From an uncultured Chloroflexota bacterium (GTDB lineage Bacteria; Chloroflexota; Anaerolineae; UBA4142; SHND01), in contig CALMZO010000300.1 in assembly GCA_937870825.1 (NCBI GenBank), positions 1 to 64,000 on the forward strand: DNA of 64,000 nucleotides. Direction: 5' to 3'. The notes beneath the pieces are model-generated. The model saw only the letters and a list, made by a program, of their open reading frames with translations, searched no databases and was not told the DNA's origin. Shown here in pieces: positions 44,673 to 61,377 of this stretch. A program made the translations under genes and the position numbers. Each line of letters opens with the position of its first letter. Position 1 is the first letter of the stretch.

Positions 44673-44701
44673 TTGACATGCCCCGAAAAATAAGTAATAA
44701 T
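44673..44701 (+). promoter_or_regulatory. Promoter P1 of the dcw cluster
   Basis: TTGACA (44673-44678), 17-bp spacer, AATAAT (44696-44701). It lies directly before four 10-bp-spaced GTGG repeats, the usual place for MraZ repression. Confidence 0.75.
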
Positions 44702-44741
44702 GTGGAACGCTGTGGGGCAAAGTGGGGGAAAGTGGTGATAT
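44702..44741 (+). promoter_or_regulatory. MraZ-type operator: four GTGG repeats at 10-bp period
   Basis: GTGGAACGCT, GTGGGGCAAA, GTGGGGGAAA and GTGGTGATAT follow each other exactly every 10 bases from 44702. MraZ is known to bind TGGG-type direct repeats with 5-base spacing upstream of its own gene in other bacteria, so this should be the autoregulatory site. Two further TGGGG words lie at about 44659 and 44764. Confidence 0.85.
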
Positions 44742-44751: not shown

Positions 44752-44780
44752 TTGACATCTCTGGTGGGGAATTTTAGAAC
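44752..44780 (+). promoter_or_regulatory. Possible second promoter P2 of mraZ
   Basis: TTGACA (44752-44757), 17-bp spacer, TAGAAC (44775-44780). The -35 is perfect but the -10 is poor. The -10 overlaps the GAAC-N4-GTTC palindrome. Confidence 0.45.
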
Positions 44781-44792
44781 GGTTGTTCTAAA
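44773..44792. promoter_or_regulatory. LexA-box-like palindrome upstream of mraZ
   Basis: TTTAGAAC-GGTT-GTTCTAAA is a perfect 8-bp inverted repeat around N4. GAAC-N4-GTTC is the core of the Gram-positive-type SOS box, also reported for Chloroflexota LexA. It overlaps the proposed P2 -10 and lies 39 bases before the mraZ ATG. LexA binding is inference. Confidence 0.55.
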
Positions 44793-44830: not shown

Positions 44831-45271
44831 ATGTTTCTCGGCGAATATTCCCACAATCTTGATGAAAAAGGGCGCTTGACCTTGCCCGCGCGTTGGCGTG
44901 AGCAGCTCGGTCAGCGCGTCGTCGTCACGCGTGGGATGGAGCCGTGCCTGTTTGTTTTTCCGGTTGCCAAGTTTGAGACGTTCCTGAATGAAATTAACAC
45001 GGTGGGCATGACCGCCGCCGACGCGCGCGGATTATCGCGCTTTTTCAGCAGCAAGGCAACCGATGATGAATTGGACAAACAGGGCAGGATTTCGCTGCCG
45101 CAAAATCTGCGTGACCATGCGAATTTGAACGGCGAGGTGATGGTCGTCGGCGCGTTCGACCATGTGGAATTGTGGAGCCCCGCACAATATGACCGCGCCG
45201 ATGCCGAATTGGTGAAAAAGGTGCCGGACATGGCAGAGCGCGTGAATGAGGCGCTGCTCAAAATGCGATGA
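44831..45271 (+). CDS. mraZ: Transcriptional regulator MraZ
   Basis: 146 aa. Two AbrB-like SpoVT halves are visible: FLGEYSHNLDEKGRLTLPAR (about 2-21) with VTRGMEPCLFVFP, and KATDDELDKQGRISLPQNLR (about 75-94) with VVGAFDHVELWSP. It forms ring-like oligomers that bind TGGG repeats and control the dcw cluster; the repeats are present at 44702. Length is normal. A dispersed repeat separates it from rsmH. Confidence 0.97.
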   Translation: MFLGEYSHNLDEKGRLTLPARWREQLGQRVVVTRGMEPCLFVFPVAKFETFLNEINTVGMTAADARGLSRFFSSKATDDELDKQGRISLPQNLRDHANLNGEVMVVGAFDHVELWSPAQYDRADAELVKKVPDMAERVNEALLKMR

Positions 45272-45280: not shown

Positions 45281-45307
45281 CGTAGGGCTGTGCCTTGTGT
45301 CTGCCCG
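45281..45307 (+). repeat. GTAGGGGC-family repeat between mraZ and rsmH
   Basis: CGTAGGGCTGTGCC, then TTGTGTCTGCCCG. It ends at the rsmH start codon, where the GTGAAACG heptamer array begins. Confidence 0.75.
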
Positions 45308-46192
45308 ATGAACGTGAAACGTGAAACGTCAAGCGTCAAACCGCATGTGCCTGTTCTGCCGGATGAGGTGATGCGCGCGCTCACGCCCAAACCCGGCGGC
45401 ACATACATTGATGGCACGCTGGGCGCGGGCGGACATGCGGAAGCGATATTGAAAGCGTGTGCGCCGGACGGAAGATTGTTGGGGCTGGACGGCGACCCCG
45501 AAGCAATACAAATCGCGCGTGATACGTTGCGTCCATTTGGAGAGCGCGCAGTTTTGGTCCGCTCGAACTTTTTACAAATGAAAACAGTTGCCGTCGAACA
45601 TGACTTTGTCCCCGCCGACGGCGTACTGCTCGACTTGGGCTTGTCCTCGATGCAGCTCGCGAATCTCGAACGCGGTTTTTCGTTTTCGAGTTCGTCACTC
45701 GATATGCGGATGGACAATCGCACCGAGCTCACCGCGCTGGATATTGTGAACGACTGGGACGAACAAGACATCGCGGACTTGATTTTTGAATACGGCGAAG
45801 AACGCGCCTCGCGCAAAATTGCGCGATGGGTTGTGGCGAACCGTCCGATTCAAAACGCGCAAGAGCTCGCCGACGTGATTGAGCGCGCGGTCGGGCGGCA
45901 CGGGAAAATTCATCCCGCGACGCGAACGTTCCAGGCATTGCGCATCGTCGTCAACAACGAACTCGAAAATTTAGAGAACACACTGCCGCAGTTGGCAGAG
46001 GTTGTGGGGCAGGGCGGACGCGTTGCCATCATCACATTTCATTCGCTCGAAGACCGCATGGTGAAAAATTTTTTCAAGACAAATGAACATTGGAAAAATT
46101 TGACCAAGCATCCGCTCAAGCCAACGTATCAGCAGACGCGCGAAAATCCGCGCGCGCGCAGCGCGAAATTGAGAGTGGCGGAGAGAAAGTAA
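45308..46192 (+). CDS. rsmH: 16S rRNA (cytosine-1402-N4)-methyltransferase
   Basis: 294 aa from ATG 45308. Residues 2-11 (NVKRETSSVK) are a translated heptamer array; the family start is at HVPVLPDEVMRAL. SAM-binding segments are DGTLGAGGHAEAIL and LLGLDGDPEAIQIA, followed by LLDLGLSSMQL, the conserved RGFSF segment and ITFHSLEDRMVK. The enzyme methylates C1402 of 16S rRNA and sits after mraZ in nearly all dcw clusters. GTG 45290 would add only repeat-derived residues. Confidence 0.96.
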   Translation: MNVKRETSSVKPHVPVLPDEVMRALTPKPGGTYIDGTLGAGGHAEAILKACAPDGRLLGLDGDPEAIQIARDTLRPFGERAVLVRSNFLQMKTVAVEHDFVPADGVLLDLGLSSMQLANLERGFSFSSSSLDMRMDNRTELTALDIVNDWDEQDIADLIFEYGEERASRKIARWVVANRPIQNAQELADVIERAVGRHGKIHPATRTFQALRIVVNNELENLENTLPQLAEVVGQGGRVAIITFHSLEDRMVKNFFKTNEHWKNLTKHPLKPTYQQTRENPRARSAKLRVAERK

Positions 46193-46276: not shown

Positions 46277-46361
46277 GCGTCGAAGACGTTCTGTAACGCC
46301 GACGATGAATGTGAGATAAGCACTCCGCGCTTTGCAATTTGCGAAATGGTTACACAAGGTG

Positions 46362-46880
46362 ATGAAGAAGCGATTGGCATTGTGGCGTCAAGAACTGAAT
46401 CAAAATTTTCGCGCGTTCAAAAAAGGCGCGCGCACGCATTGGCAAAATTTGCCGGCGTTTGGAACGGCGCGCATTGCCCTGCTCGCGCTCGGCATGTTTA
46501 TTCTCGTCGCGTTAATTTATCTCGCGCAGTCTTCGAATGCGGCATTGCTCGCGCGCGACTTGCGCGTCAAGCAGTTGAAAATTCAAGAAGTGGAACGCGA
46601 GAACGCCCAGCTGCGATATGAAATCGCCGCGCTCGCATCGCCCTCCGCCATCGAACAACGCGCGCGCAAACTCGGCTTGGGTCCGGCAAAACGCGTCGTG
46701 TATGCCGAGATGCCGTGGATTCAACCCGAACCCAATGAACTGATGCCCGCGTTTTTGCCGCAGGGACAAATCGTCACTGCGCCGCAAACATTTCAATCGA
46801 GTTCGAATACTTTGGAAGATTTGCTCGCGCTCTTTGGTTTGGCAAGTCTGACGGAACGTGTGAATGCACAAAGTCAGTGA
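46362..46880 (+). CDS. FtsL/DivIC-like septum protein
   Basis: 172 aa from ATG 46362 (TTG 46332 would add 10 residues). Bitopic: a basic cytoplasmic segment of 36 residues, one membrane helix (about 37-55, IALLALGMFILVALIYL), then a coiled coil (about 58-95, VKQLKIQEVERENAQLRYEI) and PSAIEQRARKLGLGPA, the DivIC/FtsL C-terminal motif. The tail of about 60 residues is extended and Pro/Gln-rich. It should join FtsB and FtsQ at the division site and control septal wall synthesis. Position between rsmH and ftsI supports FtsL. Confidence 0.88.
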   Translation: MKKRLALWRQELNQNFRAFKKGARTHWQNLPAFGTARIALLALGMFILVALIYLAQSSNAALLARDLRVKQLKIQEVERENAQLRYEIAALASPSAIEQRARKLGLGPAKRVVYAEMPWIQPEPNELMPAFLPQGQIVTAPQTFQSSSNTLEDLLALFGLASLTERVNAQSQ

Positions 46881-46888: not shown

Positions 46889-46941
46889 GAGTGCGGAGGA
46901 CTGAGTGGAAATGCAAACTCATTACTCAGTCCTCTGCACTC
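46889..46941 (+). promoter_or_regulatory. Hairpin enclosing the ftsI ribosome binding site and start
   Basis: GAGTGCGGAGGACTGAGT (46889-46906) pairs with ACTCAGTCCTCTGCACTC (46924-46941) with one mismatch. The left arm contains the ribosome binding site GGAGGA (46895-46900), and the loop contains ATG 46911. Folded, it would block translation of ftsI. Composition resembles the heptamer-type repeats. Confidence 0.75.
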
Positions 46942-48680
46942 GCTACTTTTCAGTGTCTGCTCTCACTCCCAATCAATTCTCTCGCCGCACCTACGTCCTG
47001 TTCACACTCATGGTGGCAGCGGCATTGGTGATTGTCGCGCGGCTTGGCTATTGGCAGGTGATGCGGCATGAGGACTTGGGGAAACTCGCGCTGGACTTGC
47101 GCGAGCGCACGATTACGGAATACGCGCGCCGCGGCGATATTCTCACTGCCGACGGAATCTTGCTTGCAACCGACATTTATTCGTACGAAGTCGCGGCGCA
47201 TCCCAACCTCATCCACAATCCAAAAGAGCAAGCGCAATTTCTTGCACCGATTTTGAACATTGGCGAAAGCGTACTCGTCGAACAATTGTCGTCGAAGGCA
47301 AGCACGGTGATGGTCACGCTGAACGCGCCGACGAGCGCGGGCAAAGAACTCACCGCATTACGCAACGCGGGAAAAATTGGCGCGATTGATTTTGTCGCGA
47401 AACCGATTCGGCGGTATCCGGGCGGTTCGCTCGCCGCGCACATTATCGGATTCACCAGCGCGAGTCGTCTCGGCGCGTACGGTCTGGAGCAGTACTATGA
47501 TGAACTCTTGCGCGGACGCGACGGAAAAATTCGCGCCGAGTCCGACGCCTTGGGCGATGAAACGCTGCCGTTCGATTTGCCGCAAGGTTCGCCCGCGCAC
47601 GATGGTTCGACGATTGTGCTCACGCTGAACAGCGCGATTCAAAACATCGCGGAACGCGAATTGCAAAAAGGGCTGGCAGAATTTGGCGCGCCGCGCGGAC
47701 AAATTCTCATCATGGAACCGCAGACAGGAAAAATTCTCGCGCTGGCGAGCTATCCCGCGCCCGATGTGAACGCGTTCGCGACGACGAAACTCGACCAATT
47801 CAACAATCCCGCCGTGAGTTTGCCGTACGAACCGGGTTCCGTGTTCAAAGTGATTACCCTCGCGACAGGGCTCGATTCGGGAAAAATTTCGCGCGGCATC
47901 GTGATGAATGACCCGGGCTCGGTGGTGATTGGCGGACGGCGTTTTTTCAATTCCGACCGCAAAGGGTACGGGAATGTTGATTTGGTGACGGCGATGGAAA
48001 AATCGCTAAACGTCATCGCCGCGAAAATTGCGTTGGCGACGGGCGCGAAAACGTTTTATCAATATCTGCACGATTTCGGTTTCGGCTCGTTGAGCGGCAT
48101 TGACCTCGCGGGCGAAATTCCCGGCACGGTAAAAAATCCGGGCGATGGGATTTGGTACGAATCCGACTTGGGGACCAATGCGTTCGGGCAGGGGCTGGCA
48201 GCGACGCCTTTGCAAATGGCAAACGCGTTGGCGACGGTGGCGAACGGCGGAAATCTGATGCGCCCGTACATTGTGGACCGCATCATTCATCCGGACGGTT
48301 CCGTCGAAGTGCGGCAGCCGCGCGTGATTCGCCGCGTGTTGAAACCCGAAACGTCCGCGATGGTGATTGATATTCTGTCGCGTTCCATCGGCAAAGAGTC
48401 CACGAACAAAGCGAATTTGCCCGGTTACAAAATCGCGGGCAAGACCGGCACCGCGCAAATTCCCGTACCCGGCGGCTATGACCCGAAATGGACAATTGCT
48501 TCGTTCGGCGGATTTTTTCCGGCAGACAATCCGCAGTACGTGATTCTCGTAAAAATTGACCGTCCGACAAAATCGCCGTGGGGTTCGCAAGTCGCCTCGC
48601 CGATTTTTGCCAGTGTGGCGCAGCAGCTCGCGCAATTGACCGGACTGCCGCCGGATGATGTGCGGACGGGGGTAAAGTGA
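46911..48680 (+). CDS. ftsI: Division-specific penicillin-binding protein (transpeptidase)
   Basis: 589 aa from ATG 46911, ten bases after GGAGGA (GTG 46905 is too close). One membrane helix (about 30-48), a pedestal with YARRGDILTADGILLATDIY (the RGxIxDRxGxxLA region), and a transpeptidase domain with Ser310-x-x-Lys313 (EPGSVFKV), Ser365-Leu-Asn367 and Lys511-Thr-Gly (AGKTGTAQIP). It cross-links septal peptidoglycan outside the membrane. The usual C-terminal PASTA domains are absent. Translation may be limited by a hairpin that hides the ribosome binding site. Confidence 0.95.
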   Translation: MQTHYSVLCTRYFSVSALTPNQFSRRTYVLFTLMVAAALVIVARLGYWQVMRHEDLGKLALDLRERTITEYARRGDILTADGILLATDIYSYEVAAHPNLIHNPKEQAQFLAPILNIGESVLVEQLSSKASTVMVTLNAPTSAGKELTALRNAGKIGAIDFVAKPIRRYPGGSLAAHIIGFTSASRLGAYGLEQYYDELLRGRDGKIRAESDALGDETLPFDLPQGSPAHDGSTIVLTLNSAIQNIAERELQKGLAEFGAPRGQILIMEPQTGKILALASYPAPDVNAFATTKLDQFNNPAVSLPYEPGSVFKVITLATGLDSGKISRGIVMNDPGSVVIGGRRFFNSDRKGYGNVDLVTAMEKSLNVIAAKIALATGAKTFYQYLHDFGFGSLSGIDLAGEIPGTVKNPGDGIWYESDLGTNAFGQGLAATPLQMANALATVANGGNLMRPYIVDRIIHPDGSVEVRQPRVIRRVLKPETSAMVIDILSRSIGKESTNKANLPGYKIAGKTGTAQIPVPGGYDPKWTIASFGGFFPADNPQYVILVKIDRPTKSPWGSQVASPIFASVAQQLAQLTGLPPDDVRTGVK

Positions 48681-48701
48681 CGGGGCGCGGGTGACGAGAA
48701 A

Positions 48702-48728: not shown

Positions 48729-48764
48729 ATCTGTTGTCAAAGAAACTTGGCGGAGAAAAATTTC

Positions 48765-49132: not shown

Positions 49133-49133
49133 T

Positions 49134-50648
49134 ATGAAAGCGGTGTTGACGCTGGGGGATTTGTTTGAAGCTTTAACCGGAACCAAACCATCGAGTGCCG
49201 TAGGAACCGCTGAAGCTAGCGTTCCGTACTCGGTTGCGGCGCTGGGAGAGCAGCGCATTACGCGAGTGGCGATTGATTCGCGGCAAGTGGTACCGGGGGC
49301 GGTGTTTTTTGCGTTACAGGGTGAAGCGCTCGATGGACATCAATTTATTGGCGAAGCGTTGGCGCGCGGCGCAATCGCCATCGTCGGAAACGCGCGTGCG
49401 CGCGAGCTAGAGTTCGGCCGCACTCTAACTTTAATAGATGTCGCCGGGTTACAACCGAACTCTAGCTTTGCGGCGCTCTCGCCAGAAAGCGTTCCACTTG
49501 TCATCACTGCAAACAGTTTAAGCGCGCTGCAAAAATTCGCCGGGCATTGGCGTAAAAAATTCCCGAACGTGCAGGTGATTGGCGTAACGGGGAGTGTCGG
49601 CAAGACTTCGACGAAAGAATTGATTTGGGCAGTTTTGAAGCAGCGGTATCGCACCTTAAAAAGTCAAGGCAATCTCAACAGTGAAACGGGCTTGCCGCTC
49701 ACAATTTTCAACCTGAACGAAACACACGAGCGCGCCGTTTTGGAAATGGGCATGTATGCGCGCGGCGAAATCGCGGCGTTGTGCGAAATTGCCGAACCGA
49801 CGATTGGCGTCGTCACGCTCGTCGCGCCGATTCATCTGGAACGGCTCGGCACGATTGAAAATATCGCGAACGCGAAAGCCGAATTGGTGGCGGCGCTGCC
49901 CGAACACGGCTGGGCAATTTTGAACGGCGATGATGTGCGTGTGCGCGCGATGCGCGACAAAACGCGCGCAAGCGTAGTAACCTTCGGACTCGACGCGACG
50001 AATGATGTGTGGGCGGATGAAATTGCCAGTCACGGTCTCGACGGCATGTCGTTCGCGCTGCATCATCAAGGCACGCATCTGCACGTGCGCGTGCCGCTGC
50101 TCGGACAGCACAGCGTACACACCGCGCTCGCGGCGGCGGCAGTGGGCATCGCGGAAAAGTTGTCGTGGGAAGAAATTTTGCGCGGGCTGCAAGATGTCTC
50201 GGCGCAGCTCCGCTTGATCGCGGTCCCCGGGAAAAATGGCATCACGATTCTGGACGACACGTACAATGCGAGTCCTCCCTCAACGCTTTCGGCGTTGAAT
50301 CTCTTGAGCGAAATGAGTGAACGCAAAATCGCGGTGTTGGGCGACATGCGCGAATTGGGCGCGTACGAACGCGAAGGACATCAACTGGTCGGCATTCGCG
50401 CAGCAGAAGTGGCGGATGTCATCATCGCCGTCGGGGCATTGGGAAAATTTATTGGCGACGCGGCGCGCGGGCAGGGACATGCCGAGGTGCATTACGCGCA
50501 AGACAACGCGCAGGCAATTGAACACATCACGCGCGTCGCGCGCGCTGGCGACATTGTTTTGGTAAAAGGTTCACGCGGCGCGCAGATGGAAAACATCGTG
50601 CAAGCATTGGCGTTGGATACGGAAGCGCACGGAGGACATGGTCATTAA
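49134..50648 (+). CDS. murF: UDP-MurNAc-tripeptide--D-alanyl-D-alanine ligase
   Basis: 504 aa. N-terminal domain with RITRVAIDSRQVVPGAVFFA and GEALDGHQFIGEAL; ATP loop VIGVTGSVGKTSTKEL (about 143-158); central NSETGLPLTIFNL; ligase C-terminal LDDTYNASPPSTLSAL and GDMRELG. It adds D-Ala-D-Ala to UDP-MurNAc-tripeptide in the cytoplasm. Two palindromic insertions are translated in the N-terminal domain: near residues 22-37 (AVGTAEASVPYSVAAL) and near 90-118 (RELEFGRTLTLIDVAG and QPNSSFAAL). They make this domain longer than usual. Stop and mraY start overlap by one base. Confidence 0.96.
   Translation: MKAVLTLGDLFEALTGTKPSSAVGTAEASVPYSVAALGEQRITRVAIDSRQVVPGAVFFALQGEALDGHQFIGEALARGAIAIVGNARARELEFGRTLTLIDVAGLQPNSSFAALSPESVPLVITANSLSALQKFAGHWRKKFPNVQVIGVTGSVGKTSTKELIWAVLKQRYRTLKSQGNLNSETGLPLTIFNLNETHERAVLEMGMYARGEIAALCEIAEPTIGVVTLVAPIHLERLGTIENIANAKAELVAALPEHGWAILNGDDVRVRAMRDKTRASVVTFGLDATNDVWADEIASHGLDGMSFALHHQGTHLHVRVPLLGQHSVHTALAAAAVGIAEKLSWEEILRGLQDVSAQLRLIAVPGKNGITILDDTYNASPPSTLSALNLLSEMSERKIAVLGDMRELGAYEREGHQLVGIRAAEVADVIIAVGALGKFIGDAARGQGHAEVHYAQDNAQAIEHITRVARAGDIVLVKGSRGAQMENIVQALALDTEAHGGHGH
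49203..49225 (+). repeat. Palindromic insertion 1 inside murF
   Basis: GGAACCGCTGAAGCT then AGCGTTCC forms a GGAAC.GCT/AGCG.TTCC hairpin. It lies in frame in the N-terminal domain of MurF, where the family has no conserved residues. Confidence 0.6.
49405..49467 (+). repeat. Palindromic insertion 2 inside murF
   Basis: AGCTAGAGTTCGG at 49405-49417 is repeated in inverse as CCGAACTCTAGCT at 49455-49467, a perfect 13-bp stem with a 37-base interior. AGCTAG is otherwise rare in this CGCG-rich sequence but occurs in both murF insertions (GAAGCTAG here and at 49213). Confidence 0.7.
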
Positions 50649-51634
50649 TGTCCATTCCTCTCGCGCTCGGCACCTTGTCCTTTTTGCTCGCCGTGATTTG
50701 GGGTTCGCCGCTGATTCGTTGGCTGCGCGCGAATCGCATCGGCAAACAAATTCGCATTGAAGAGCCCGGTTCGAATCAGGTCAAGATGGGCACGCCGACA
50801 ATGGGCGGCATCATGATTGTCGTGCCTGTGGTCGTCGTCACGGTGGTTTTGAACATTTACAATCTGATTGGCGGGACGATTGTGGGCGGTTCGATTTTGG
50901 TCCCGTTGGCGACGCTCATCAGTTTCGCGGCGTTGGGGGCGTATGATGATTGGAGCGGCTTGCGGGGGGGGGTGAACGGCGCAGTCGGTTTGTTGGGGCG
51001 TTACAAGATTTTGGCGCAAATTGTTTTGTCCTTTGTCATTGCGCTGATTTTGTATTTTCCCCTCGACATTCACAGCATTGCGATTCCGACGGTTCCGCAA
51101 AAAATTGACCTGGGGTTGATTTATATCCCGATTGCGATGTTTATCATCGTCGGCGCGTCGAATGCGGTCAATTTTACGGATGGTCTGGATTCGCTGGCGG
51201 GATGGGTGACGGCGTTCGGGTTTGCCGCGTACGGCGTGATTGCGTTTTTGCAGCAGCAGATTTATCTCGTCACGTTTTGTTTCATCATGGTCGGTGCGCT
51301 GCTGGCGTTTCTTTGGTACAACGCGCATCCCGCCGAATTGTTTATGGGCGATGTAGGTTCGCTGGCGTTGGGTTCGACGCTCGCCGTGGTCGCGTTGATG
51401 ACGGGGCAGTGGCTTTTGTTGCCGCTGGTGGGAATTATTTTTGTCGCGGAAGCGCTGTCCGTGATTTTGCAGGTCGGATATTTCAAACTGACCAAAGGCA
51501 AACGCATTTTCAAAATGACGCCGATTCATTATCATTTTATTTTGTTGGGCTGGAGCGAAACGCAAGTGGTACAGCGATTTTGGTTGGTAGGGCTGTTGGC
51601 GGCGATGTTGGGTGTGGCGTTGGCGTTGTTGTGA
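50648..51634 (+). CDS. mraY: Phospho-MurNAc-pentapeptide transferase
   Basis: 328 aa, ten membrane helices. Catalytic Asp residues are visible in LGAYDDWSGLRGG (about 96-108) and NAVNFTDGLDSLAG (about 176-189); ELFMGDVGSLALG and the H-rich loop FKMTPIHYHFILLGW complete the signature. It transfers phospho-MurNAc-pentapeptide to undecaprenyl phosphate to make lipid I. A G9 run at 50964-50972 encodes the Gly-Gly of LRGGVNG directly after the catalytic DD motif, so a slip would knock out this essential enzyme. Confidence 0.97.
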   Translation: MSIPLALGTLSFLLAVIWGSPLIRWLRANRIGKQIRIEEPGSNQVKMGTPTMGGIMIVVPVVVVTVVLNIYNLIGGTIVGGSILVPLATLISFAALGAYDDWSGLRGGVNGAVGLLGRYKILAQIVLSFVIALILYFPLDIHSIAIPTVPQKIDLGLIYIPIAMFIIVGASNAVNFTDGLDSLAGWVTAFGFAAYGVIAFLQQQIYLVTFCFIMVGALLAFLWYNAHPAELFMGDVGSLALGSTLAVVALMTGQWLLLPLVGIIFVAEALSVILQVGYFKLTKGKRIFKMTPIHYHFILLGWSETQVVQRFWLVGLLAAMLGVALALL

Positions 51635-51881: not shown

Positions 51882-52272
51882 ATATCTCGTCATCGGCGGG
51901 TATGCTGTAATTTATCACGGCTATCCGCGCGCGACGCAAGACCTCGATATTTGGATTGCGGTACATCCTGACAATGCCAACCGAGTTGTCAGGGCGTTAG
52001 AGGAATTTGGCTTTGGGTCTCCCGAATTAACGACTGAAATGTTCTTGAAAGATTCAAGTGTCGTGAGAATGGGTATTCCGCCGATTCGCATCGAGATAAC
52101 GATGCGAATCTCCGGGGTTGAATTTCAAGAAAGCTTTCACGGAAAAATTGTTGACGAGATGGATGGGATTCCGGTAAATATCATTAACCTGAAAGACCTA
52201 TTGTTGAATAAGAAAGCAAGTGGTCGCTACAAAGATATGAATGATGTAGAGCATTTGACTCCTGATGATTGA
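51817..52272 (+). CDS. Nucleotidyltransferase-fold protein (DUF6036/AbiEii-like)
   Basis: 151 aa. The nucleotidyltransferase signature is present: LVIGGYAVIYHGYPRATQDL then DIWIA, that is G-G...(T)xDxD with Asp residues at about 42 and 44. The C-terminal part (PVNIINLKDLLLNKKASGRY) also fits the family. Such proteins occur in toxin-antitoxin and abortive-infection modules where they modify tRNA or proteins. The gene sits inside the essential dcw cluster between mraY and murD and overlaps murD by eight bases, which should force co-expression. Base composition is less CGCG-rich than its neighbours, suggesting transfer. Confidence 0.85.
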   Translation: MDIELHSDFQDFLKLLNVHGVEYLVIGGYAVIYHGYPRATQDLDIWIAVHPDNANRVVRALEEFGFGSPELTTEMFLKDSSVVRMGIPPIRIEITMRISGVEFQESFHGKIVDEMDGIPVNIINLKDLLLNKKASGRYKDMNDVEHLTPDD

Positions 52273-53656
52273 TTTGAGAAATAAACGGGTCCTTGTCATG
52301 GGACTGGGGCTGCACGGCGGGGGCTTGGGCGTGACGCGCTGGTTGTTGAAAAACGGAGCGCGGGTGACAGTGACGGACCTTAAAAAAGAAAATGAATTGA
52401 AGGCGACGCTCGAACAGCTGCGCGATGCAAATGTTGAATTTGTTCTCGGCGAACATCGCGCAAGTGATTTTGAAAACGCGGACTTGATTATTCGCAATCC
52501 GGGCGTGCCGCGCGAATCGCGTTACTTGCAAATTGCGCGCGAAAAAAATATCCGGATTCGGATGGAGTTGGGACTGTTCACAGAATTATTGCCGCGCGGT
52601 ATGGAGCAGGTCATCGGCATCACGGGAACCAAAGGCAAAACGACGACGACGCTGATGACCGGCGCGATTTTGAAACGCGCGAATGCGAAAACGGTGATTG
52701 CAGGAAATTTGCGCGTGTCCGCGCTCGAATTGCTCGACACGATTGACGCGGAAACGCCCGTTGTTTTGGAAATGTCGTCGTTTCAACTCGAAGAGTTTGA
52801 GGAATTGAAACGCAGTCCGCACATCGCGGCAATTACGAATGTCTATCCCGACCACTTGAATCGCTATCGTGACATGGACGAATACGCGTGGGCAAAAGCA
52901 CAAATTTTTTTGCATCAGCAGCCGCGCGATTTTGTAATCCTGAACTTTGACAATGGGATTTGCACGCGGTTGCGCCCGAAAGCGCTTGGACAAGTGATTT
53001 GGTTCAGCCGCACACGCGCCATCAAGCAAGGCGCGCGTCTCGACAGGGACTGGCTGGTTTGGAATGACGAAAGTGGTCCACAAAAAATTTTGCGCGCGGA
53101 TGAATTGATTGCGGGACAGCACAATGTCGAGAACGCGCTCGCGGCGATGGCGATTGCGAAAGCGTGGGGTGTCGAGAATGAAATAATTTCGGAGGCGCTG
53201 CGCGAATTTCGGGGCGCGCCGCATCGTTTGGAACTCGTGCGCGAATTGGACGGCGTGCAATACATCAACGACACCACCGCCACCGCGCCGAACGCAACCA
53301 TCGTGGCATTAAAAACATTGGCGCCGCGCGGCGGAAATATTTTTTTGATTGCAGGCGGTTACGACAAAGGATTACCGTATACGGAAATGGCAAAGGTGAT
53401 CGCAGAAACAAACGCGCGGGTGATTTTGTTGGAGGGCACGGCGACAGAAAAAATCGAACGCGCGTTGAACGAGGCAAACGCGCAAACACAAATTGTGGCG
53501 CGCGCGAAAAATTTGCCAGAGGCAGTCGAGTTTGGAACAAATTCCGCGAGCGCGGGTGACATTGTTTTGCTTTCACCCGGCGCGGCGAGTTTTGGAATGT
53601 TTTTGAACGAGTTTGAACGCGGGGATAAATTTCGAGAGATTGTGAACGCGCTGTAA
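52265..53656 (+). CDS. murD: UDP-MurNAc-L-alanine--D-glutamate ligase
   Basis: 463 aa from ATG 52265, overlapping the nucleotidyltransferase gene. N-terminal Rossmann-like domain (KRVLVMGLGLHGGGLGVTRW), ATP loop GITGTKGKTTTTLM (about 118-131), SSFQLEEFEELKRSPHIA, ITNVYPDHLNRY with the Mg-binding region, and the ligase C-terminal domain with YINDTTATAPNAT and IAGGYDKGLPY. It adds D-Glu to UDP-MurNAc-L-Ala in the cytoplasm. The Gly-rich HGGGLG is a little longer than in most MurD proteins. Confidence 0.96.
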   Translation: MIDLRNKRVLVMGLGLHGGGLGVTRWLLKNGARVTVTDLKKENELKATLEQLRDANVEFVLGEHRASDFENADLIIRNPGVPRESRYLQIAREKNIRIRMELGLFTELLPRGMEQVIGITGTKGKTTTTLMTGAILKRANAKTVIAGNLRVSALELLDTIDAETPVVLEMSSFQLEEFEELKRSPHIAAITNVYPDHLNRYRDMDEYAWAKAQIFLHQQPRDFVILNFDNGICTRLRPKALGQVIWFSRTRAIKQGARLDRDWLVWNDESGPQKILRADELIAGQHNVENALAAMAIAKAWGVENEIISEALREFRGAPHRLELVRELDGVQYINDTTATAPNATIVALKTLAPRGGNIFLIAGGYDKGLPYTEMAKVIAETNARVILLEGTATEKIERALNEANAQTQIVARAKNLPEAVEFGTNSASAGDIVLLSPGAASFGMFLNEFERGDKFREIVNAL

Positions 53657-53683
53657 ATCGAAATTCAAAACTAAAAACGAACC

Positions 53684-55027
53684 ATGGCGATTTCCGTTTC
53701 ACCCCGAACATCACTGTTCGATTCCCTCCGCGAGCGTTTGTGGGCGCGCGCGAATACGCGTCCCGCCGATTATGTTCTGCTCACGGTCGTCGGGCTTTTG
53801 CTGTTGATTGGCGTGATGAGCATTTACAGCGTTTCGTTCGGACCGAATTTGCAGGTGGGCGATGACCCGTTTGGTTTTATTCAACGGCATTTGGGTATAC
53901 TCGTCATCGGCGTCGCGGTCATGTTTATTTTTGCGCGGCTCGACTATCACTTGCTGATGCGTTATGCCGTGCCGTTGATGTTGGTGACGTTGGCGCTGCT
54001 CGCGGCGTTGCTGTTGTTTGGGCATGAAGAGAACGGGGCGCGGCGCTGGCTCTTTGGTCCGTCGGTGCAGCCGGGCGAAATCGCGAAATTGATTACGATT
54101 GTGTATGTCGCGGCGTGGTCGGCATCCAAAGGGAAAAAACTCAAGCGCCTCGTGTACGGGCTTGTGCCGTTCTCGATTTTGATTGGACTGATTGCGGGGC
54201 TTATCATTTTGCAGCCGAACTATAGCACCGCGCTGTTGATTGCCGCCGTCGCGTTCACGATGTTTTTCATGGCGGGCGCGGACTTGAAACAATTTTTTGG
54301 TGCGGCAATTTTTGGAAGCGGCGTCGCGGCATTGGTGGTGACACAATCGTCCCGCGCCATGTCGCGGTTCAGCACGCTGTATGTCGAGCCGACGCAAGAA
54401 TTGACGGACGGCTCATGGCAGATGGCACAAACGTTGATTGCGCTGGCGTCCGGCGGAATTTTTGGCAAAGGTCTCGGAACCGGCGGTGGTCAGTACGGGT
54501 ACGTACCCCTCGCGCATTCGGACGGCATCTTTGCGATTTGGAGCGAAGAGACCGGACTCATCGGCGCGACAATTTTGGTGGGACTGTTTATGGTCCTGGC
54601 GTATCGCGGGTTTCGCGTGGCGCGGAATGCGCCGGATGATTTTGGACGCGTGCTCGCGGCGGGCGTGACGTTTTGGCTTGTGTTTCAAGCATTCATCAAT
54701 ATCGCGGTCATCACGCAATTGATTCCCTTTACAGGACAACCATTGCCGTTCGTTTCGTATGGCGGTTCGTCGCTCGTCATGTGTTTGGCGAGTGTGGGAA
54801 TTTTGTTGAGCATTTCGCGCGCGCTGCCGAAACCGCCTGTGGTGAAAAGCGTGCCGACGGTCGGGAGCGCGCCGACAAAAGAAAATCAACTCCTTGTTTC
54901 GCGGAGCGAAACGACAAAAAAGAATGCGACTATTGGTTACGGGGGGGGGGACCGGGGGACACGTTTATCCCCTCGTCGCCGTACTGCAACACCTCGCCGC
55001 CGCGCAAAATCCGACGCGCAGGATTGA
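53684..55027 (+). CDS. ftsW: Septal peptidoglycan polymerase FtsW
   Basis: 447 aa. SEDS family: ten helices, with QRHLGILVIGV, FGHEENGARRWLFGPSVQPG, KLITIVYVAAW, LQPNYSTALLIAAVAFTMFF and the catalytic Asp region, and IPFTGQPLPFVSYGGSSLV near the end. It polymerises lipid II with its partner FtsI. The normal protein ends around LLSISRALPKPP; here 60 more residues follow, and the last 35 codons overlap the start of murG in another frame, reading through the G10 run (YGGGDRGTRLSPRRR). A one-base change in that run would alter this tail. Confidence 0.94.
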   Translation: MAISVSPRTSLFDSLRERLWARANTRPADYVLLTVVGLLLLIGVMSIYSVSFGPNLQVGDDPFGFIQRHLGILVIGVAVMFIFARLDYHLLMRYAVPLMLVTLALLAALLLFGHEENGARRWLFGPSVQPGEIAKLITIVYVAAWSASKGKKLKRLVYGLVPFSILIGLIAGLIILQPNYSTALLIAAVAFTMFFMAGADLKQFFGAAIFGSGVAALVVTQSSRAMSRFSTLYVEPTQELTDGSWQMAQTLIALASGGIFGKGLGTGGGQYGYVPLAHSDGIFAIWSEETGLIGATILVGLFMVLAYRGFRVARNAPDDFGRVLAAGVTFWLVFQAFINIAVITQLIPFTGQPLPFVSYGGSSLVMCLASVGILLSISRALPKPPVVKSVPTVGSAPTKENQLLVSRSETTKKNATIGYGGGDRGTRLSPRRRTATPRRRAKSDAQD

Positions 55028-56111
55028 TTTGCAAACGGATGTGCTGTACGTCGGGCGCGCGGGCGGCGCGGAAGAAAAAATTACGTCCGCGCTGCAGATT
55101 CCGTTTCAAAGGATTCGCGTGGGCGGGTTACGCAGTATGGGCGCGGTAACGCAAGCGCGCAATTTCGCCCAGATGGTTCAGGCGTCGCGCGCGGCGGCAA
55201 ACATCATCGCACTTTTCCAACCGAATGTTATTTTGGCTACGGGGGGATACGTGAGCGCGCCGGTGTTGTGGGCGGGCTGGCGCAAAAAAATTCCGATTGT
55301 GATTGAACTACCCGATTTGGAACCGGGTTGGGCGATTCGCGCGACGTGGCGGTTGAGCCATCAGGTCGCGGTATCCTTTGACGAGGTGTTGAAATTTTTT
55401 GCGCGCGGACGCGCGACGGTGACGGGGTATCCGGTGCGCGCGGAATTTTTTCAAGCGACGCGCCAAGCGGGACGCGCGCATTTTCAACTCGACGAACATG
55501 TTGCGGTGGTGACGGTGTTTGGTGGAAGTCAAGGCGCGCACGCGTTGAACGAAGCGGTGCGAATGAATTTGCGCGAACTCTTACGTGAGACGCAAATCAT
55601 TCACGTCTGCGGAACGCGCGACAAAATGCAATTGGATGCCGAATGCGCGTTGCTGGAGTCGAATCTCGCCGCGCGTTATCACGTCTTTGACTATCTGAGC
55701 GATGGTATGCCGCTCGCCCTCGCCGCGGCGGATGTCGTCGTCGCACGCGCAGGCGCGGCAACGCTTGGCGAGTTTCCGGCAGTCGGCGTACCGAGCATTT
55801 TGGTGCCGGGGTTGTTCGCGCAGGGGCATCAGGCCAAGAACGCGGATTTTTTGGAATCGCGCGGCGCGGCAGTGAAACTGCCCGAAGAAAAGTTGGCGAG
55901 CGAATTTGTGGCGACGATAAAGAAACTGCTGCGCGATGAAACGTGTTTGAATGAAATGCGCGCGGCGGTGAAAAAATTGGCGCGACCGGATGCGGCAGAG
56001 CGAATTGGAAATTTGTTGTTCGAGTATGCGCGCAGAGACCTCACCCCCCAGCCCCCTCTCCTGAAAAATTCCATTCGGAATTTTTCAGGAGAGGGGGCGC
56101 AAGAAGGTTGA
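54924..56111 (+). CDS. murG: UDP-GlcNAc--undecaprenyl-PP-MurNAc-pentapeptide GlcNAc transferase
   Basis: 395 aa from ATG 54924 (MRLLVTGGGTGGHVYPLVAV), inside the end of ftsW. G-loop 1 (GGGTGGH, residues 7-13) is encoded partly by the G10 run. ILATGGYVSAPVLWAGW, the second G-loop VFGGSQGAHALNEAV and the UDP-GlcNAc-binding AGAATLGEFPAVGVPSIL then AQGHQAKNA are all typical. It makes lipid II at the inner face of the membrane. The last 25 residues (DLTPQPPLLKNSIRNFSGEG...) are a translated hairpin repeat added to the C-terminus. Confidence 0.95.
   Translation: MRLLVTGGGTGGHVYPLVAVLQHLAAAQNPTRRIDLQTDVLYVGRAGGAEEKITSALQIPFQRIRVGGLRSMGAVTQARNFAQMVQASRAAANIIALFQPNVILATGGYVSAPVLWAGWRKKIPIVIELPDLEPGWAIRATWRLSHQVAVSFDEVLKFFARGRATVTGYPVRAEFFQATRQAGRAHFQLDEHVAVVTVFGGSQGAHALNEAVRMNLRELLRETQIIHVCGTRDKMQLDAECALLESNLAARYHVFDYLSDGMPLALAAADVVVARAGAATLGEFPAVGVPSILVPGLFAQGHQAKNADFLESRGAAVKLPEEKLASEFVATIKKLLRDETCLNEMRAAVKKLARPDAAERIGNLLFEYARRDLTPQPPLLKNSIRNFSGEGAQEG
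54941..54950 (+). repeat. G10 homopolymer in the ftsW/murG overlap
   Basis: Ten consecutive G, then ACCGGGGG. It encodes the phosphate-binding GGG of MurG in one frame and GGG of the FtsW tail in another. Confidence 0.9.
56039..56098 (+). repeat. CCTCACCCC...GGAGAGG hairpin repeat at the end of murG
   Basis: CCCCCTCTCCTGAAAAATTC followed by C at 56052-56072 pairs perfectly over 21 bp with 56077-56097, loop of four. It is translated as the MurG tail and would form a very stable messenger hairpin just before murC. Confidence 0.9.
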
Positions 56112-56134
56112 AGCTCTTGAATGGCGGAGATGAG

Positions 56135-57487
56135 ATGCACATTCATTTCATCGGCATTGGCGGCGCTGGGCTTTCGGCGTTGGCGCACGTGATGTTGGGA
56201 CGCGGTTTTGTGGTGAGTGGTTCGGACCCGGCGGCGCCGAATGAAGCAACAGACTCGTTGGAAAAACTCGGGGCGCGCATATTTTCGGGACATGACGCGC
56301 AAAACATCGCGGGCGCGGACCTGATTGTCGCAACCTCGGCCGCGCCGAGCGACAATCCTGAACTGGTTGCAGCACATGACCAACGGATTCCGGTTTTGAA
56401 ACGGCGCGAATTTTTGCGCGAGGTGACGCGCGGGTATGACGTGATTGCCGTCGCGGGCTCACATGGCAAAACGACGACGACGGCAATGATTGCGACAATT
56501 TTGGAAAACGCGGGTTCGGACCCGACGGTTGTGATTGGCGGGACGGTGCCAAGCTGGAATGCGAACGCGCGGGTTGGAAAATCCAACTGGTTTGTGATGG
56601 AAGCGGACGAGTACGATTACGCGTTTTTGGGAGTGGAGCCAAAAATCGCGGTGTTGACAAATGTGGACTATGACCATCCCGACTTGTTTCCAACGCGCGA
56701 GATGTATCAAAATGTGTTTGCGGAATTTTTGAAACAAACGCGCGACGATGGCGTAGTTGTGGTTTGCGGCGACGAACGCGCGGCGACGCGCGTCGCAAAA
56801 GCGTCGGGCAAGACGATGCTTTGTTATGGGTTTGATGCTGAAAATGATTGGCGCGCCGTTAACGTGTACGCGAACGAGTGGGGCGGAAATGATTTTGAAA
56901 TTTTTTTCGAAAATGCTTTTGCTGTAAGCGCGTCGTTACAAGTTCCGGGGCAGCACAACGTTTTGAATGCGCTCGCCGCGCTGATTGCAGCCAATGTTGC
57001 GAACGTGAAACGGGAAACGTCAATTGCAACGCTCGAAAAATTTTCCGGGGTGGGGCGACGATTTGAAATTCACGGGAGTTTCAACGGCGCGACGCTCGTA
57101 GACGATTACGCGCATCATCCGACCGAGATTCGCGCGACGCTCCGCGCGGCGCGGCAACGTTTTGCCGATGCGCGCCTTGTTGTGTTATTTCAGCCGCATA
57201 CGTTTTCGAGAACGCGCGCGCTGCTCGATGAATTTGTGAATGCGTTCGAGGACGCGGACGAAATTTTGATTACGGAAATTTACGCGGCGCGTGAGACCGA
57301 CGATTCGGGATTGAGCAGTCGTGAGTTAGTGGAACAGATGAACAAGCGTGCGCGTTATGTGGAAACATTGGAGGAAGCGGAAAAAATGTTACGCGCGGAA
57401 TTGCGCGCGGGTGATGTGTTGCTGGCGCTCGGCGCGGGGGATGTGAATCAGGTGACCGCTGAATTGGTCGGGAACGAATATGCGTGA
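56135..57487 (+). CDS. murC: UDP-MurNAc--L-alanine ligase
   Basis: 450 aa from ATG 56135 with GGCGGAGATGAG upstream (TTG 56108 overlaps murG). IHFIGIGGAGLSALAHVMLG binds the UDP part; VAGSHGKTTTTAMIATILEN (about 107-126) is the ATP loop; MEADEYDYAFL, ITNVD-type VLTNVDYDHPDLF, PGQHNVLNALAA and VDDYAHHPTEIRATL, then LFQPHTFSRTRAL are all present. It links L-Ala to UDP-MurNAc, the first step of stem-peptide assembly. Residues 289-297 (ANVKRETSI) are a translated heptamer array between the central and C-terminal domains. Confidence 0.96.
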   Translation: MHIHFIGIGGAGLSALAHVMLGRGFVVSGSDPAAPNEATDSLEKLGARIFSGHDAQNIAGADLIVATSAAPSDNPELVAAHDQRIPVLKRREFLREVTRGYDVIAVAGSHGKTTTTAMIATILENAGSDPTVVIGGTVPSWNANARVGKSNWFVMEADEYDYAFLGVEPKIAVLTNVDYDHPDLFPTREMYQNVFAEFLKQTRDDGVVVVCGDERAATRVAKASGKTMLCYGFDAENDWRAVNVYANEWGGNDFEIFFENAFAVSASLQVPGQHNVLNALAALIAANVANVKRETSIATLEKFSGVGRRFEIHGSFNGATLVDDYAHHPTEIRATLRAARQRFADARLVVLFQPHTFSRTRALLDEFVNAFEDADEILITEIYAARETDDSGLSSRELVEQMNKRARYVETLEEAEKMLRAELRAGDVLLALGAGDVNQVTAELVGNEYA

Positions 57488-58321: not shown

Positions 58322-59230
58322 ATGATGGAAAAAAATTTTTTGAGGAATGAACCGCTCGCGCGGCATACAACTTTGCGCATCGGCGGACCGGCAGAGTATT
58401 TTGTGCGCGTGGATTCGCGTGAGGAATTGATAAAAGCGATTCAGTGGGCGCGCATACAGCACCTTGAAATTTTTATACTGGGAAACGGTTCGAACATTCT
58501 CGTGAGTGATGCGGGGATTCGCGGGATGGTGATAGAGAATCACGCGGATGAGGTTAAAGAAACGAGAGTCGAGAAACGAGAGGCGTCAAACGTAAAACAT
58601 GAAACGTTACGCGTGATTGCCGAAAGTGGCGCGTCGCTGCCGGGGCTGGCGAATCGTTTGGCGCGGCAGGGATGGCGAGGTTTAGAGTGGGCGATTGGTG
58701 TGCCTGCGACCATCGGCGCGGCGGTGGTGACGAACGCGGGCGCGCATGGCGGTTCACTCAGCGACAATTTGGTGCGCGCGGAAATTTTGGATTCGCAAAA
58801 TGAAATCCGCTGGTGGACGCGCGAGGAATTGCAGTACGACTATCGATCGAGTTTTTTGAAAAAACATTCTAACGAATTTGTGGTATTGCGCGCGGAATTT
58901 GAATTGGAACGCGACGATGCGGCGAACTGCATTGCGCGGATGAATCAGTACACGGAACATCGGCGGCGTACACAGCCGACGGAACCGAGCGTGGGTTCGA
59001 TGTTCAAAAATCCGCAAGGCGATTACGCGGGACGATTGATTGAAGCGGCGGGACTCAAGGGAACGCGAATTGGAAATGTGCAAATTTCAAATGTTCATGC
59101 GAATTTTTTTGTGAATCTTGGCGGCGCAACGGCGAATGATGTGATGCAATTGATAGAGTTGGTAAAAAACCAAGTGCGCGAAAAATTTAAGGTAGAGTTG
59201 GAGTTGGAAATTCAAGTTGTTGGCGAATGA
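58322..59230 (+). CDS. murB: UDP-N-acetylenolpyruvoylglucosamine reductase
   Basis: 302 aa (ATG 58322 or 58325). FAD-binding ARHTTLRIGGPAEYFVRVDS and FILGNGSNILVSDAGIRGMV; EWAIGVPATIGAAVVTNAGA; DYRSSFLK; and the catalytic Ser226 in PSVGSMFKNPQGDYAGRLIE. It reduces the enolpyruvyl group to make UDP-MurNAc. Sequence between PSVGS and the end lacks the long type I insertion, so it is type II. Residues about 79-95 (KETRVEKREASNVKHET) are translated heptamer-type repeat inserted in a loop after the first FAD subdomain. Confidence 0.96.
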   Translation: MMEKNFLRNEPLARHTTLRIGGPAEYFVRVDSREELIKAIQWARIQHLEIFILGNGSNILVSDAGIRGMVIENHADEVKETRVEKREASNVKHETLRVIAESGASLPGLANRLARQGWRGLEWAIGVPATIGAAVVTNAGAHGGSLSDNLVRAEILDSQNEIRWWTREELQYDYRSSFLKKHSNEFVVLRAEFELERDDAANCIARMNQYTEHRRRTQPTEPSVGSMFKNPQGDYAGRLIEAAGLKGTRIGNVQISNVHANFFVNLGGATANDVMQLIELVKNQVREKFKVELELEIQVVGE

Positions 59231-59240
59231 CGAACAACGG

Positions 59241-60362
59241 ATGACGAAAAAAATTCGAGTCGGATTGATATTCGGCGGCAAAACCGGTGAGCATGAAGTT
59301 TCGCTCGCGTCGGCGCAATCGGTGCTGCGCGCGTTGGACGCGGAGAAATACGACGCGGTGTTGATTGGCATCACCCAAGAGGGACGATGGTTGACCGGCG
59401 GCAATCCCTTGCAGCAGTTGGTCCGCGCGACGGAGTCACCATTGCTGAAAGCGAGGAACGAAGCGGTTCAAAACGCGACAAATGAAACGAGCGCAATCGT
59501 TACGCGCGAGGCGGCGGAGATTACCGCGGCGAACGCGTTGAACGAAACGGTGGATGTGGTGTTTCCGCTGATTCACGGACCGAACGGCGAAGACGGAACC
59601 ATTCAGGGCTTGCTGGAACTCGCAGATTTGCCGTATGTGGGTGCGAATGTGGCAGCGAGCGCGGTGGGAATGGACAAGGCATTGATGAAAGCATTGTTTC
59701 GCAATGCCGGGTTGCCTGTCGCCGACTATCTTGTCGTGATGCGGCACAAGTGGGAGCATGACCCCGAAGAAACGATTCACGATATCGAGACGATTATCAA
59801 ATATCCCTGTTTTGTAAAACCCGCGAATTTGGGTTCGAGCGTGGGAATTTCGAAAGCGCACAATTGGGATGAATTGACGCAAGCGTTGACGACAGCGGCG
59901 CAGTACGACCGAAAAATTTTGGTCGAGCGCGCGATTGTCGGGCGCGAGTTGGAATGCAGTGTGTTGGGCAATGACGCGCCGCTCGCGTCCTTGCCGGGCG
60001 AAGTGATTCCCGAACGCGAATTTTATGATTACGAAGCGAAATACGCGGATGAGCGCACCAAGTTGATTGTCCCGGCGGATTTGACGGGCGAACAGACGCG
60101 CTCGATTCAAGACCTCGCGGTGCGCGCGTTTCAGGCGATTGATTGCAGCGGCATGGCGCGCGTGGATTTTTTCATGGACGCGCGCGACGGCAAAATTCTG
60201 GTCAACGAAATCAATACGATTCCCGGCTTTACGAATGTTTCGATGTATCCAAAAATGTGGGAAGCGAGTGGTGTGAGTTATTCGCAGTTGATTGACCGTT
60301 TGATTCAGTTGGCGTTGGAACGACACGCAGACAAAAAGAGGACTGTGAGCAGTTATCGGTAA
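59241..60362 (+). CDS. ddl: D-alanine--D-alanine ligase
   Basis: 373 aa from ATG 59241, overlapping the murB stop region only if the TTG at 59217 is used. N-terminal KIRVGLIFGGKTGEHEVSLA with the substrate loop GEHEVSLASA; VFPLIHGPNGEDGTIQGLLE; central ATP-grasp region with CFVKPANLGSSVGISKAHN; and metal-binding ARVDFFMDARDGKILVNEIN followed by TIPGFTNVSMYPKMW. It makes D-Ala-D-Ala for MurF. Length fits the longer VanA-like Ddl subgroup. A Y in the GxxSYS position (FTNVSMYP) is consistent with D-Ala rather than D-Lac specificity. Confidence 0.95.
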   Translation: MTKKIRVGLIFGGKTGEHEVSLASAQSVLRALDAEKYDAVLIGITQEGRWLTGGNPLQQLVRATESPLLKARNEAVQNATNETSAIVTREAAEITAANALNETVDVVFPLIHGPNGEDGTIQGLLELADLPYVGANVAASAVGMDKALMKALFRNAGLPVADYLVVMRHKWEHDPEETIHDIETIIKYPCFVKPANLGSSVGISKAHNWDELTQALTTAAQYDRKILVERAIVGRELECSVLGNDAPLASLPGEVIPEREFYDYEAKYADERTKLIVPADLTGEQTRSIQDLAVRAFQAIDCSGMARVDFFMDARDGKILVNEINTIPGFTNVSMYPKMWEASGVSYSQLIDRLIQLALERHADKKRTVSSYR

Positions 60363-60365
60363 TCG

Positions 60366-60416
60366 GTGAACAGTAATCTGTGGCGACAAAGTGAACGTCA
60401 AACGCAAAACGTGAAA
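60366..60416 (+). repeat. Heptamer arrays between ddl and ftsQ
   Basis: AATCGGTGAACAGTAATCTG, then GAACGTCAAACGCAAAACG and TGAAACGTCA. Both the GATTACT/GTTCACT-type and the ACGTGAA-type words are present in the 85-base gap. Confidence 0.7.
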
Positions 60417-60447
60417 CGTCACTTGGACTCGTCACCTATCACTTGCC

Positions 60448-61377
60448 ATGAACATTCGCCGACGTGATACCAAAGCAGAATCATCAACCCCGCGCCGCGC
60501 GCGTCGGGCGCGCAAAGTGGTAGGCGCGGCGTCGCGCGTGCGCGTGTTGAGTGTGGAACCGCGCGCGCAAGAGAAATCGAAACGCGGGGTAACAGCGCGC
60601 CCGTCACAAAAACGCGCGACGTTCGATATTGCCGCGCCGCGTTTGGTCATCCATCCGTGGCAGACGCAGCGCGATTGGAAAGCGAGTCGTCCGAAATTCG
60701 CGGCGGGTGTTTTGATTGTGTTGCTCATCGCCGCGTTGTACGCCATGTTCAACCTCGATTTCTTTTTCATCACCGAGCCGATTGTGATTGGAAACAAAAT
60801 TGTGCCGCGCGAAGAAATCGTCCAAGTGTCGGGAATGCGCGGCTGGAATATCTTTTTCGTCGAACCCCGCGTCGTCGAAAACGCCGTGCGGACACTGCCC
60901 GAATTTCAAGATGTGCAAGTGTACGTGACGCTGCCGAACACGTTGGAAATTTACATGACGGAACGGACACCGCGTTTTGTGTGGGAAGTCGCGGGGAAAA
61001 ATTATTGGGTGGACCAGGATGGGATTGCGATGCGCCCGCGCGGGATGGTGAACAATGGCTGGCACGTGCGCGACAGCGAGGGCAAGCCGGTCCAGTACGG
61101 GGAACGCATCAACCCCGACGCGTTCAACGCCGCAGTTTCACTCATCAACGTTTGGAAAGAATCGCCACGATATTTTGAATGGACAAAGGCGCACGGACTC
61201 ACCGTACGTGACGAACACGGCTGGCTGATTTATTTCGGCAGCGCAAGTCAAATGCAAGACAAATTTACCGCGCTGAACATTGTCACCACGCAGTTGCTGC
61301 GCGACAAACGCACGGTCGCGTTTATTGATTTGGGAAGTGGATTGCCGTATTACCAAGAAGTTGCCGCGAAAAAGTAA
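60448..61377 (+). CDS. ftsQ: Cell division protein FtsQ/DivIB
   Basis: 309 aa. A strongly basic cytoplasmic tail of about 85 residues (RRARRARKVVGAASRVRVLS and on), one membrane helix (about 88-110, AAGVLIVLLIAALYAMFNL), then the POTRA domain (FFITEPIVIGNKIVPREEIV, RTLPEFQDVQVYVTLPNTLE) and the FtsQ beta domain (TPRFVWEVAGKNYWVDQDGI). It links FtsL/FtsB and the early divisome. The cytoplasmic tail is longer than in most homologues, as in Actinobacteria and some Chloroflexota. An inverted heptamer repeat separates it from ftsA. Confidence 0.93.
   Translation: MNIRRRDTKAESSTPRRARRARKVVGAASRVRVLSVEPRAQEKSKRGVTARPSQKRATFDIAAPRLVIHPWQTQRDWKASRPKFAAGVLIVLLIAALYAMFNLDFFFITEPIVIGNKIVPREEIVQVSGMRGWNIFFVEPRVVENAVRTLPEFQDVQVYVTLPNTLEIYMTERTPRFVWEVAGKNYWVDQDGIAMRPRGMVNNGWHVRDSEGKPVQYGERINPDAFNAAVSLINVWKESPRYFEWTKAHGLTVRDEHGWLIYFGSASQMQDKFTALNIVTTQLLRDKRTVAFIDLGSGLPYYQEVAAKK

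Follow-up and report, generated by a model that had tools for sequence, protein, structure and literature searches.

SulA is a dedicated division inhibitor under SOS control, LexA of E. coli recognises a motif that differs from the GAAC-N4-GTTC type described here, and a LexA regulon built on GAAC-N4-GTTC is known in Dehalococcoides. The Gram-positive and Dehalococcoides regulons have the same core at lexA and recA as the genomes studied here, which differ from them in having mraZ as a target and, within one genus, a second LexA (LexA2) that looks uncleavable. YneA and DivS also appear as SOS-controlled division inhibitors, in the reference list of PMC3998124. SulA, YneA and DivS likewise tie DNA damage to division, but as separate small inhibitors, whereas at the present locus the target is the regulator gene heading the division and cell wall (dcw) cluster.

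According to EcoCyc, as rendered in the accessible part of PMC3265435, LexA represses dcw of E. coli by way of three SOS boxes, whose place that part does not give, and there, too, LexA acts as repressor of an mraZ-headed division and wall cluster. Human gut metagenome data made mraZ (COG2001) a candidate SOS gene, and one such site was bound by B. subtilis LexA in EMSA (Cornish et al. 2014, PMC3998124, in excerpt). The gut site shares with ours a LexA operator assigned to mraZ, yet it belongs to Gram-positive bacteria, while ours lies in Chloroflexota, in fixed register with a promoter (P1) and MraZ-type repeats, and is accompanied in relatives by a box at the start codon; the excerpt of Cornish et al. 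gives neither lineage-wide conservation nor promoter architecture. MraZ itself binds boxes upstream of dcw, as the available text of PMC8475190 reports for its control of the cluster in E. coli and M. genitalium; MraZ-box-like repeats at the mraZ promoter are common to those systems and to this one, in which a LexA operator is added beside the repeats. A link between LexA and dcw or mraZ is in general already known and is not new here. Our search of the openly accessible literature found no report of LexA at mraZ in Chloroflexota, and the accessible part of PMC8247434 has no LexA at mraZ. What is added here is the lineage, the order-wide conservation, the architecture with MraZ repeats, the start-codon box and a second, apparently uncleavable LexA. 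The initial annotation of this DNA had called SOS control at the entry of the cluster unusual, a description that holds only in part, given the precedents in E. coli dcw (PMC3265435) and at the LexA-bound gut mraZ site (PMC3998124).

Results

The window, that is, the whole stretch of 64,000 nucleotides that was analysed, comes from a 7.2-Mb draft genome (G000; 95.4% complete, 5.1% contaminated), which forms a genus with five congeners (n=6) and, with a sister family (n=14), a little-studied order of Chloroflexota represented here by 20 genomes. Read directly from the window letters, positions 44773-44792 are TTTAGAAC-GGTT-GTTCTAAA, an exact 8+8 palindrome with a GAAC-N4-GTTC core, just as the initial annotation had described it; the gap to the mraZ ATG (44831) is 38 bases, one fewer than the 39 given there. 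The features of the locus are:

44673..44701, + strand: promoter P1 (TTGACA, 17 bp, AATAAT), 11 of 12 consensus
44712..44736, + strand: three GTGG(G/T) direct repeats with a period of 10 bp, probable MraZ boxes
44764..44768, + strand: fourth GTGGG repeat, 62 bases past the -10, at the same place in 6/6 genus members
44773..44792, no strand: predicted LexA operator, 16-bp core TAGAAC-N4-GTTCTA at 44775-44790
44831..45271, + strand: mraZ (PF02381, 127 bits; TIGR00242, 6.7e-40)
45290..46192, + strand: rsmH/mraW (PF01795, 334 bits)
46332..46880, + strand: putative frame in the ftsL position (open reading frame and position)
46905..48680, + strand: ftsI-type PBP transpeptidase (PF00905)
49134..51634, + strand: Mur ligase in the murF position, and mraY (PF08245, PF00953)
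52265..57487, + strand: murD, ftsW, murG, murC (Pfam; Mur ligase identities by position and reading)
58322..61377, + strand: murB, ddl, ftsQ (Pfam matches)
61448-62713, + strand: putative ftsA (open reading frame named from sequence)
62991 onward, past the window end at 64000, + strand: putative ftsZ start (open reading frame named from sequence)

The PF02381 match bears out the naming of the downstream gene as mraZ; the best named match of its product is from a 'Chloroflexota bacterium' (90% identity). The genes from mraZ to ftsZ all point the same way with mraZ in first place, which makes the proposal that SOS controls the cluster as a whole plausible, but LexA loss should raise dcw expression and not stop it. 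A spacer of about 450 bp (48680-49134) lies inside the cluster. Two extra frames within it do not correspond to standard dcw genes; that at 51817-52272 reads like a putative nucleotidyltransferase or antitoxin-type protein and that at 57480-58220 like a putative membrane protein.

mraZ is present in 58 of 60 relatives, and the upstream region was read in 50 of the 58, all 20 genomes of the order included. The exact core precedes mraZ in 17/20 genomes of the order (genus 6/6, sister family 11/14), spread over 10 of its 13 genera, whereas dinucleotide shuffles of the 20 upstream regions averaged 0.05 and never exceeded 2/20. Retention in close relatives, which the initial annotation had named as a check, is complete in 5/5 congeners but partial in the sister family, 3/14 of which (G008, G010, G017) hold only a one-mismatch core at the equivalent place. 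In the genus alignment 8/8 core columns are invariant, as are 13/36 just upstream of the core, 44/70 over the promoter and repeats, and 0/38 from box to ATG, the last partly from length changes.

When the order was scanned with a pattern, 17/20 genomes matched, the match in G000 being a chance one elsewhere in the genome, with its own box beyond the gap limit of the search. Class-wide, 47/396 genomes matched against 9 for the reversed control. Outside the order fell 31 of the 47, of which 30 were read: 13 precede an MraZ-like protein (families f4, f17, f35, f37, f42 and f60, the f60 match, L127, being doubtful inside a GC-rich inverted repeat) and 17 are chance. Among 80 named loci chosen by similarity to the MraZ of the order, an upstream or start-codon box was present in 8/8 Chloroflexota and in 0/72 others, the latter mostly Bacillota by title, with the phylum of two of the 80 names checked. 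Elsewhere in the phylum sample, G405 has an exact core 148 bp upstream of mraZ, outside the 100-bp count given below, and a core with a single mismatch sits at -47 in three f71 genomes.

The bare core turns up in the window about as often as chance predicts (2 copies for an expected 1.76), and what carries the call of a LexA site beyond chance is its conservation together with a matrix built from lexA and recA promoters. The 7.2-Mb genome has 16 copies of AGAAC-N4-GTTCT, while the reversed control gives 7. Family searches find recA and two lexA genes in the window genome; the initial annotation had counted a lack of lexA against its reading. The lexA1 promoter reads TTGACAT-CGAACGCGTGTTCG-CTTATAAT, and two GAAC-N4-GTTC boxes precede lexA2. 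Over the order the exact core stands at 17/17 lexA1 and 11/11 lexA2 loci read (39 sites; the searches turned up neither a lexA1 in G001 nor any lexA in G017, and a few additional hits were left unread). At recA the core lies between -35 and -10 in 19/19 over-cut-off loci, to which G017 contributes none; 12 are exact and seven have one mismatch, which in six of the seven is the same change (CGCAC), found in all six genus members. The comparison with lexA and recA suggested at the outset thus yields the same core at both, with one conserved mismatch in recA of the genus.

Trained on 58 operators of the order (39 lexA and 19 recA sites), a 16-bp matrix gives the mraZ site 20.3 bits, the top score of the window (runner-up 15.6), the training operators scoring 14.8-22.9 bits (median 19.4). 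An equally good site occurred in 1/100 first-order Markov windows with this matrix, which was chosen, recA included, after the weak result of 20-bp lexA-only matrices had been seen. With one of these, the mraZ box was equalled in 15/60 Markov windows; with the other the mraZ site scored 15.1 bits against 13.9 for the mean best of 40 windows. We judge that the outer columns of the 20-bp matrices took up -35/-10 letters of the lexA promoters. Going by sequence, 44773-44792 is almost certainly an operator for the SOS repressor LexA of the GAAC-N4-GTTC type, and the LexA-type site first proposed is strongly supported by the presence of lexA and recA, by the motif in both their promoters and by the box in 5/5 congeners.

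How does the operator sit relative to the promoter? An equivalent of P1 with the 11-of-12 score is found in 6/6 genus members (TTGACA-17-NATAAT). The repeats start 10, 20 and 30 bases past the -10, and the three-repeat array is met in 5/6, the third repeat of G005 reading GTGGC. We take the GTGG(G/T) repeats to be MraZ boxes by a consensus reportedly given in Eraso 2014 and Fisunov 2016, and for the array at 44712-44736 this identity is probable. The distance from the -10 to the LexA core is 75 bp in 6/6 genus members while the box-to-ATG stretch ranges between 9 and 42, and this fixed spacing to the promoter, against a drifting one to the ATG, argues that the element works at the level of transcription. 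A promoter was scored in 10/14 sister-family genomes, with the core 43-53 past the -10 in those 10 (51-53 in 7/10) and the last repeat at 66-74 past the -10 in 9/10. The core lies downstream of the -10 and has no overlap with P1. The initial annotation had it overlapping the -10 of a possible second promoter (TTGACA at 44752-44757, TAGAAC as -10), which we reject, as that TTGACA is present in 0/5 congeners (G002 has TTTACA) and the promoter that is kept is the one at 44673-44701. We infer a transcription start near 44708, which would place LexA about 70 bp inside the transcript, a position that does not suggest plain occlusion of P1 but a roadblock, or else a complex formed jointly with MraZ.

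A second LexA-type box, GAAC-NN-(A/G)TGTTC, spans the mraZ start codon, whose final base together with codon 2 forms the right half of the box. It is present in 9/14 sister-family genomes and in 0/6 genus members, the window mraZ starting with ATGTTT; 7 of the 9 also have the upstream box, and in G008 and G010 it is the sole exact box. Elsewhere it is found in 11/42 other class genomes of ten families (counting G030, at whose box no start codon was found) and in 0/96 genomes from the rest of the phylum. Scores range from 11.7 to 21.1 bits, some of them weak. TTC as codon 2 accompanies every copy of the box, which is present with it in 9/11 genomes of the order against 0/9 with TTT and in 10/54 outside it against 0/54 with TTT (0.0003 and 0.0006 by one-sided Fisher tests that do not correct for relatedness; 29 genomes without a start matched to the pattern, G030 among them, were left out of this comparison). 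Either box lies within 100 bp in 19/20 genomes of the order, 14/42 other class genomes and 2/96 from the rest of the phylum, and within the stretch read neither is present in 28/42 and 94/96 of the latter two sets. These 42 and 96 comprise the 30 relatives from outside the order and 108 newly read genomes of the 151 in the phylum sample with mraZ, 36 of which were left unread. That the box shifts its place while its link to mraZ stays suggests that the link, and not the position, is under selection. G017, which is 70% complete, has no lexA, no full recA and neither exact box at mraZ; this hints at co-loss of lexA/recA and the mraZ boxes, with the caveat that the genome is incomplete.

LexA1 of the window genome is over the TIGR00498 cut-off and in the alignment keeps the Ala-Gly site, the Ser and the Lys, the residues of the LexA cleavage site (PMC8565304, in excerpt), and is predicted to be cleavable. 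In LexA2 of the genus the Ala-Gly site is absent from 6/6 copies, the Ser is Ala in 5/6 (G004 keeps Ser) and the Lys is replaced in 5/6 (G001 keeps Lys); for G000 the residues of the LexA proteins were also compared by structure-sequence alignments. The LexA2 gene of the window genome lies at G000:C238:27002-27580 (L002/L009), behind the two LexA boxes. From these residues and boxes, LexA2 is probably a LexA paralogue that cannot be cleaved, regulates its own gene and has become fixed in the genus. Six genomes of the order (G006, G008, G009, G011, G012, G014) carry frames of about 110-155 aa that match only the DNA-binding part of LexA and are possible cleavage-free LexA-like regulators.

Further LexA-like boxes occur in the genus, where 17 promoter-embedded matches include the lexA genes, L243, L234, L236, L237 and L244; no recA lies within 1.5 kb of the L236 or L244 boxes. 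In G000, AGAAC-N4-GTTCT stands directly upstream of two short FtsK/SpoIIIE-type translocase genes (L001:2398 on contig C446 and L008:1501 on C134; 367 and 343 aa), one of which follows lexA1. At L243/L014 (G000:C390:27778) two LexA-like boxes, one just after TTGAC, accompany a Peptidase_M78 (IrrE-like) gene with a weak HTH match, and the next gene is small and putatively PIN-type toxin-like. At L003, L007, L013 and L004/L016 boxes recur in near-identical surroundings (CAGAAC-N4-GTTCTG...TAGCAGAG), those of L004/L016 near phage-type integrases; by their letters these appear to be repeated or mobile elements carrying LexA-like sites.

Discussion

The reading that we consider probable, from the arrangement of sites and genes, is that LexA, at an operator in the 5' leader of the dcw operon that mraZ heads, represses mraZ and dcw and that SOS cleavage derepresses them. 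LexA would bind about 70 bp (genus) or about 35-50 bp (sister family) inside the transcript and hinder RNA polymerase arriving from P1, lowering mraZ and dcw transcription; upon DNA damage, RecA-triggered cleavage of LexA would lift the block and mraZ would rise. MraZ, the first product, would then act on the repeats beside the same promoter and reset dcw output. Damage would thus act at the entry of the division cluster and on the regulator that the cluster itself encodes, beyond a SulA- or YneA-like inhibitor.

In which direction would damage move the cluster? With canonical LexA at the box, damage should raise mraZ, and derepression would raise the division genes, the reverse of the arrest that SOS usually brings, except where MraZ on balance represses. 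On the one hand, MraZ represses dcw in E. coli and M. genitalium (PMC8475190, in part), whereas on the other hand it activates in N. elongata (PMC9395523, in part), and the net sign therefore cannot be read from the sequence. Further observations count against the reading that we consider probable: mraZ of C. glutamicum falls on ciprofloxacin, according to the available text of PMC5055667, the mraZ site lies about 70 bp within the transcript while the recA and lexA boxes of the order are at a promoter-blocking position, and both exact boxes are missing from G017 and, within the stretch read, from 28/42 other class genomes and 94/96 from the rest of the phylum.

A possible though less likely reading, which overlaps with the one we favour, is that LexA affects mraZ and the genes just after it but, owing to internal promoters, hardly reaches ftsA/ftsZ, which amounts to minor tuning. 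The many internal promoters of the E. coli cluster (PMC3265435) are in its favour, as are the spacer and the two extra frames within the cluster described above; the exact upstream boxes in 10/13 genera, however, argue that for mraZ, at least, the input is of consequence.

We regard it as unlikely that the mraZ box belongs to LexA2, which without self-cleavage would give RecA-independent or inverted control, SOS cleaving LexA1, LexA2 being induced and LexA2 repressing mraZ/dcw. The cleavage residues are mostly gone from LexA2 of the genus, its lexA2 operators read (A/G)GAAC-N4-GTTCT (12 sites) while the lexA1 operators are all CGAACGCGTGTTCG (5 sites), and the mraZ box scores 20.1 bits by a lexA2 matrix against -2.0 by a lexA1 matrix, 20-bp matrices that share the weakness of the outer columns and were compared with two 20-mers left out for register. 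The lexA1 operator set is, however, nearly uniform, recA operators of the genus have the GTTCTA half, placing this half-site also at a canonical SOS gene, the upstream box is carried by G013, G021 and G054, each with a single detected lexA, and LexA2 proteins of the sister family have their cleavage residues intact. Canonical LexA is accordingly our first choice over LexA2 as the candidate protein at the mraZ box. We also think it quite unlikely that in this genus an uncleavable LexA2, itself placed under SOS control by the cleavable LexA1, accumulates upon damage on the mraZ operator, with MraZ on the repeats, and shuts the entry to dcw, a checkpoint by dcw repression and not by a SulA-type inhibitor.

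It is very improbable that the palindrome works as a leader RNA hairpin, an attenuator or stability element, and not as a protein site. Its predicted place in the 5' leader would suit this, an 8-bp stem with a 4-base loop is possible, and a G-T pair is kept at the changed place in 2/3 one-mismatch copies. But the core has no two-sided (compensatory) change in 20 sequences, the flanking pairs at positions 1, 2 and 3 are retained in no more than 13, 10 and 9 of 17, the letters equal those of lexA/recA operators, and the genus keeps the register to the promoter; given the lack of compensatory changes, the operator letters and the register, we reject the hairpin. A chance palindrome, which the near-expected frequency of the bare core in the window would allow, has a negligible likelihood and is rejected on the order-wide conservation, the shuffle mean of 0.05 and the 20.3-bit matrix score.

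Returning to canonical LexA at the mraZ operator, this arrangement suggests that damage may retune the division and wall cluster directly, beyond a separate division inhibitor. How damage is coupled to division outside model bacteria is poorly known, and so are the purpose of MraZ and the signal to which it responds. An order-wide LexA operator beside MraZ-type repeats offers one testable promoter for both questions.
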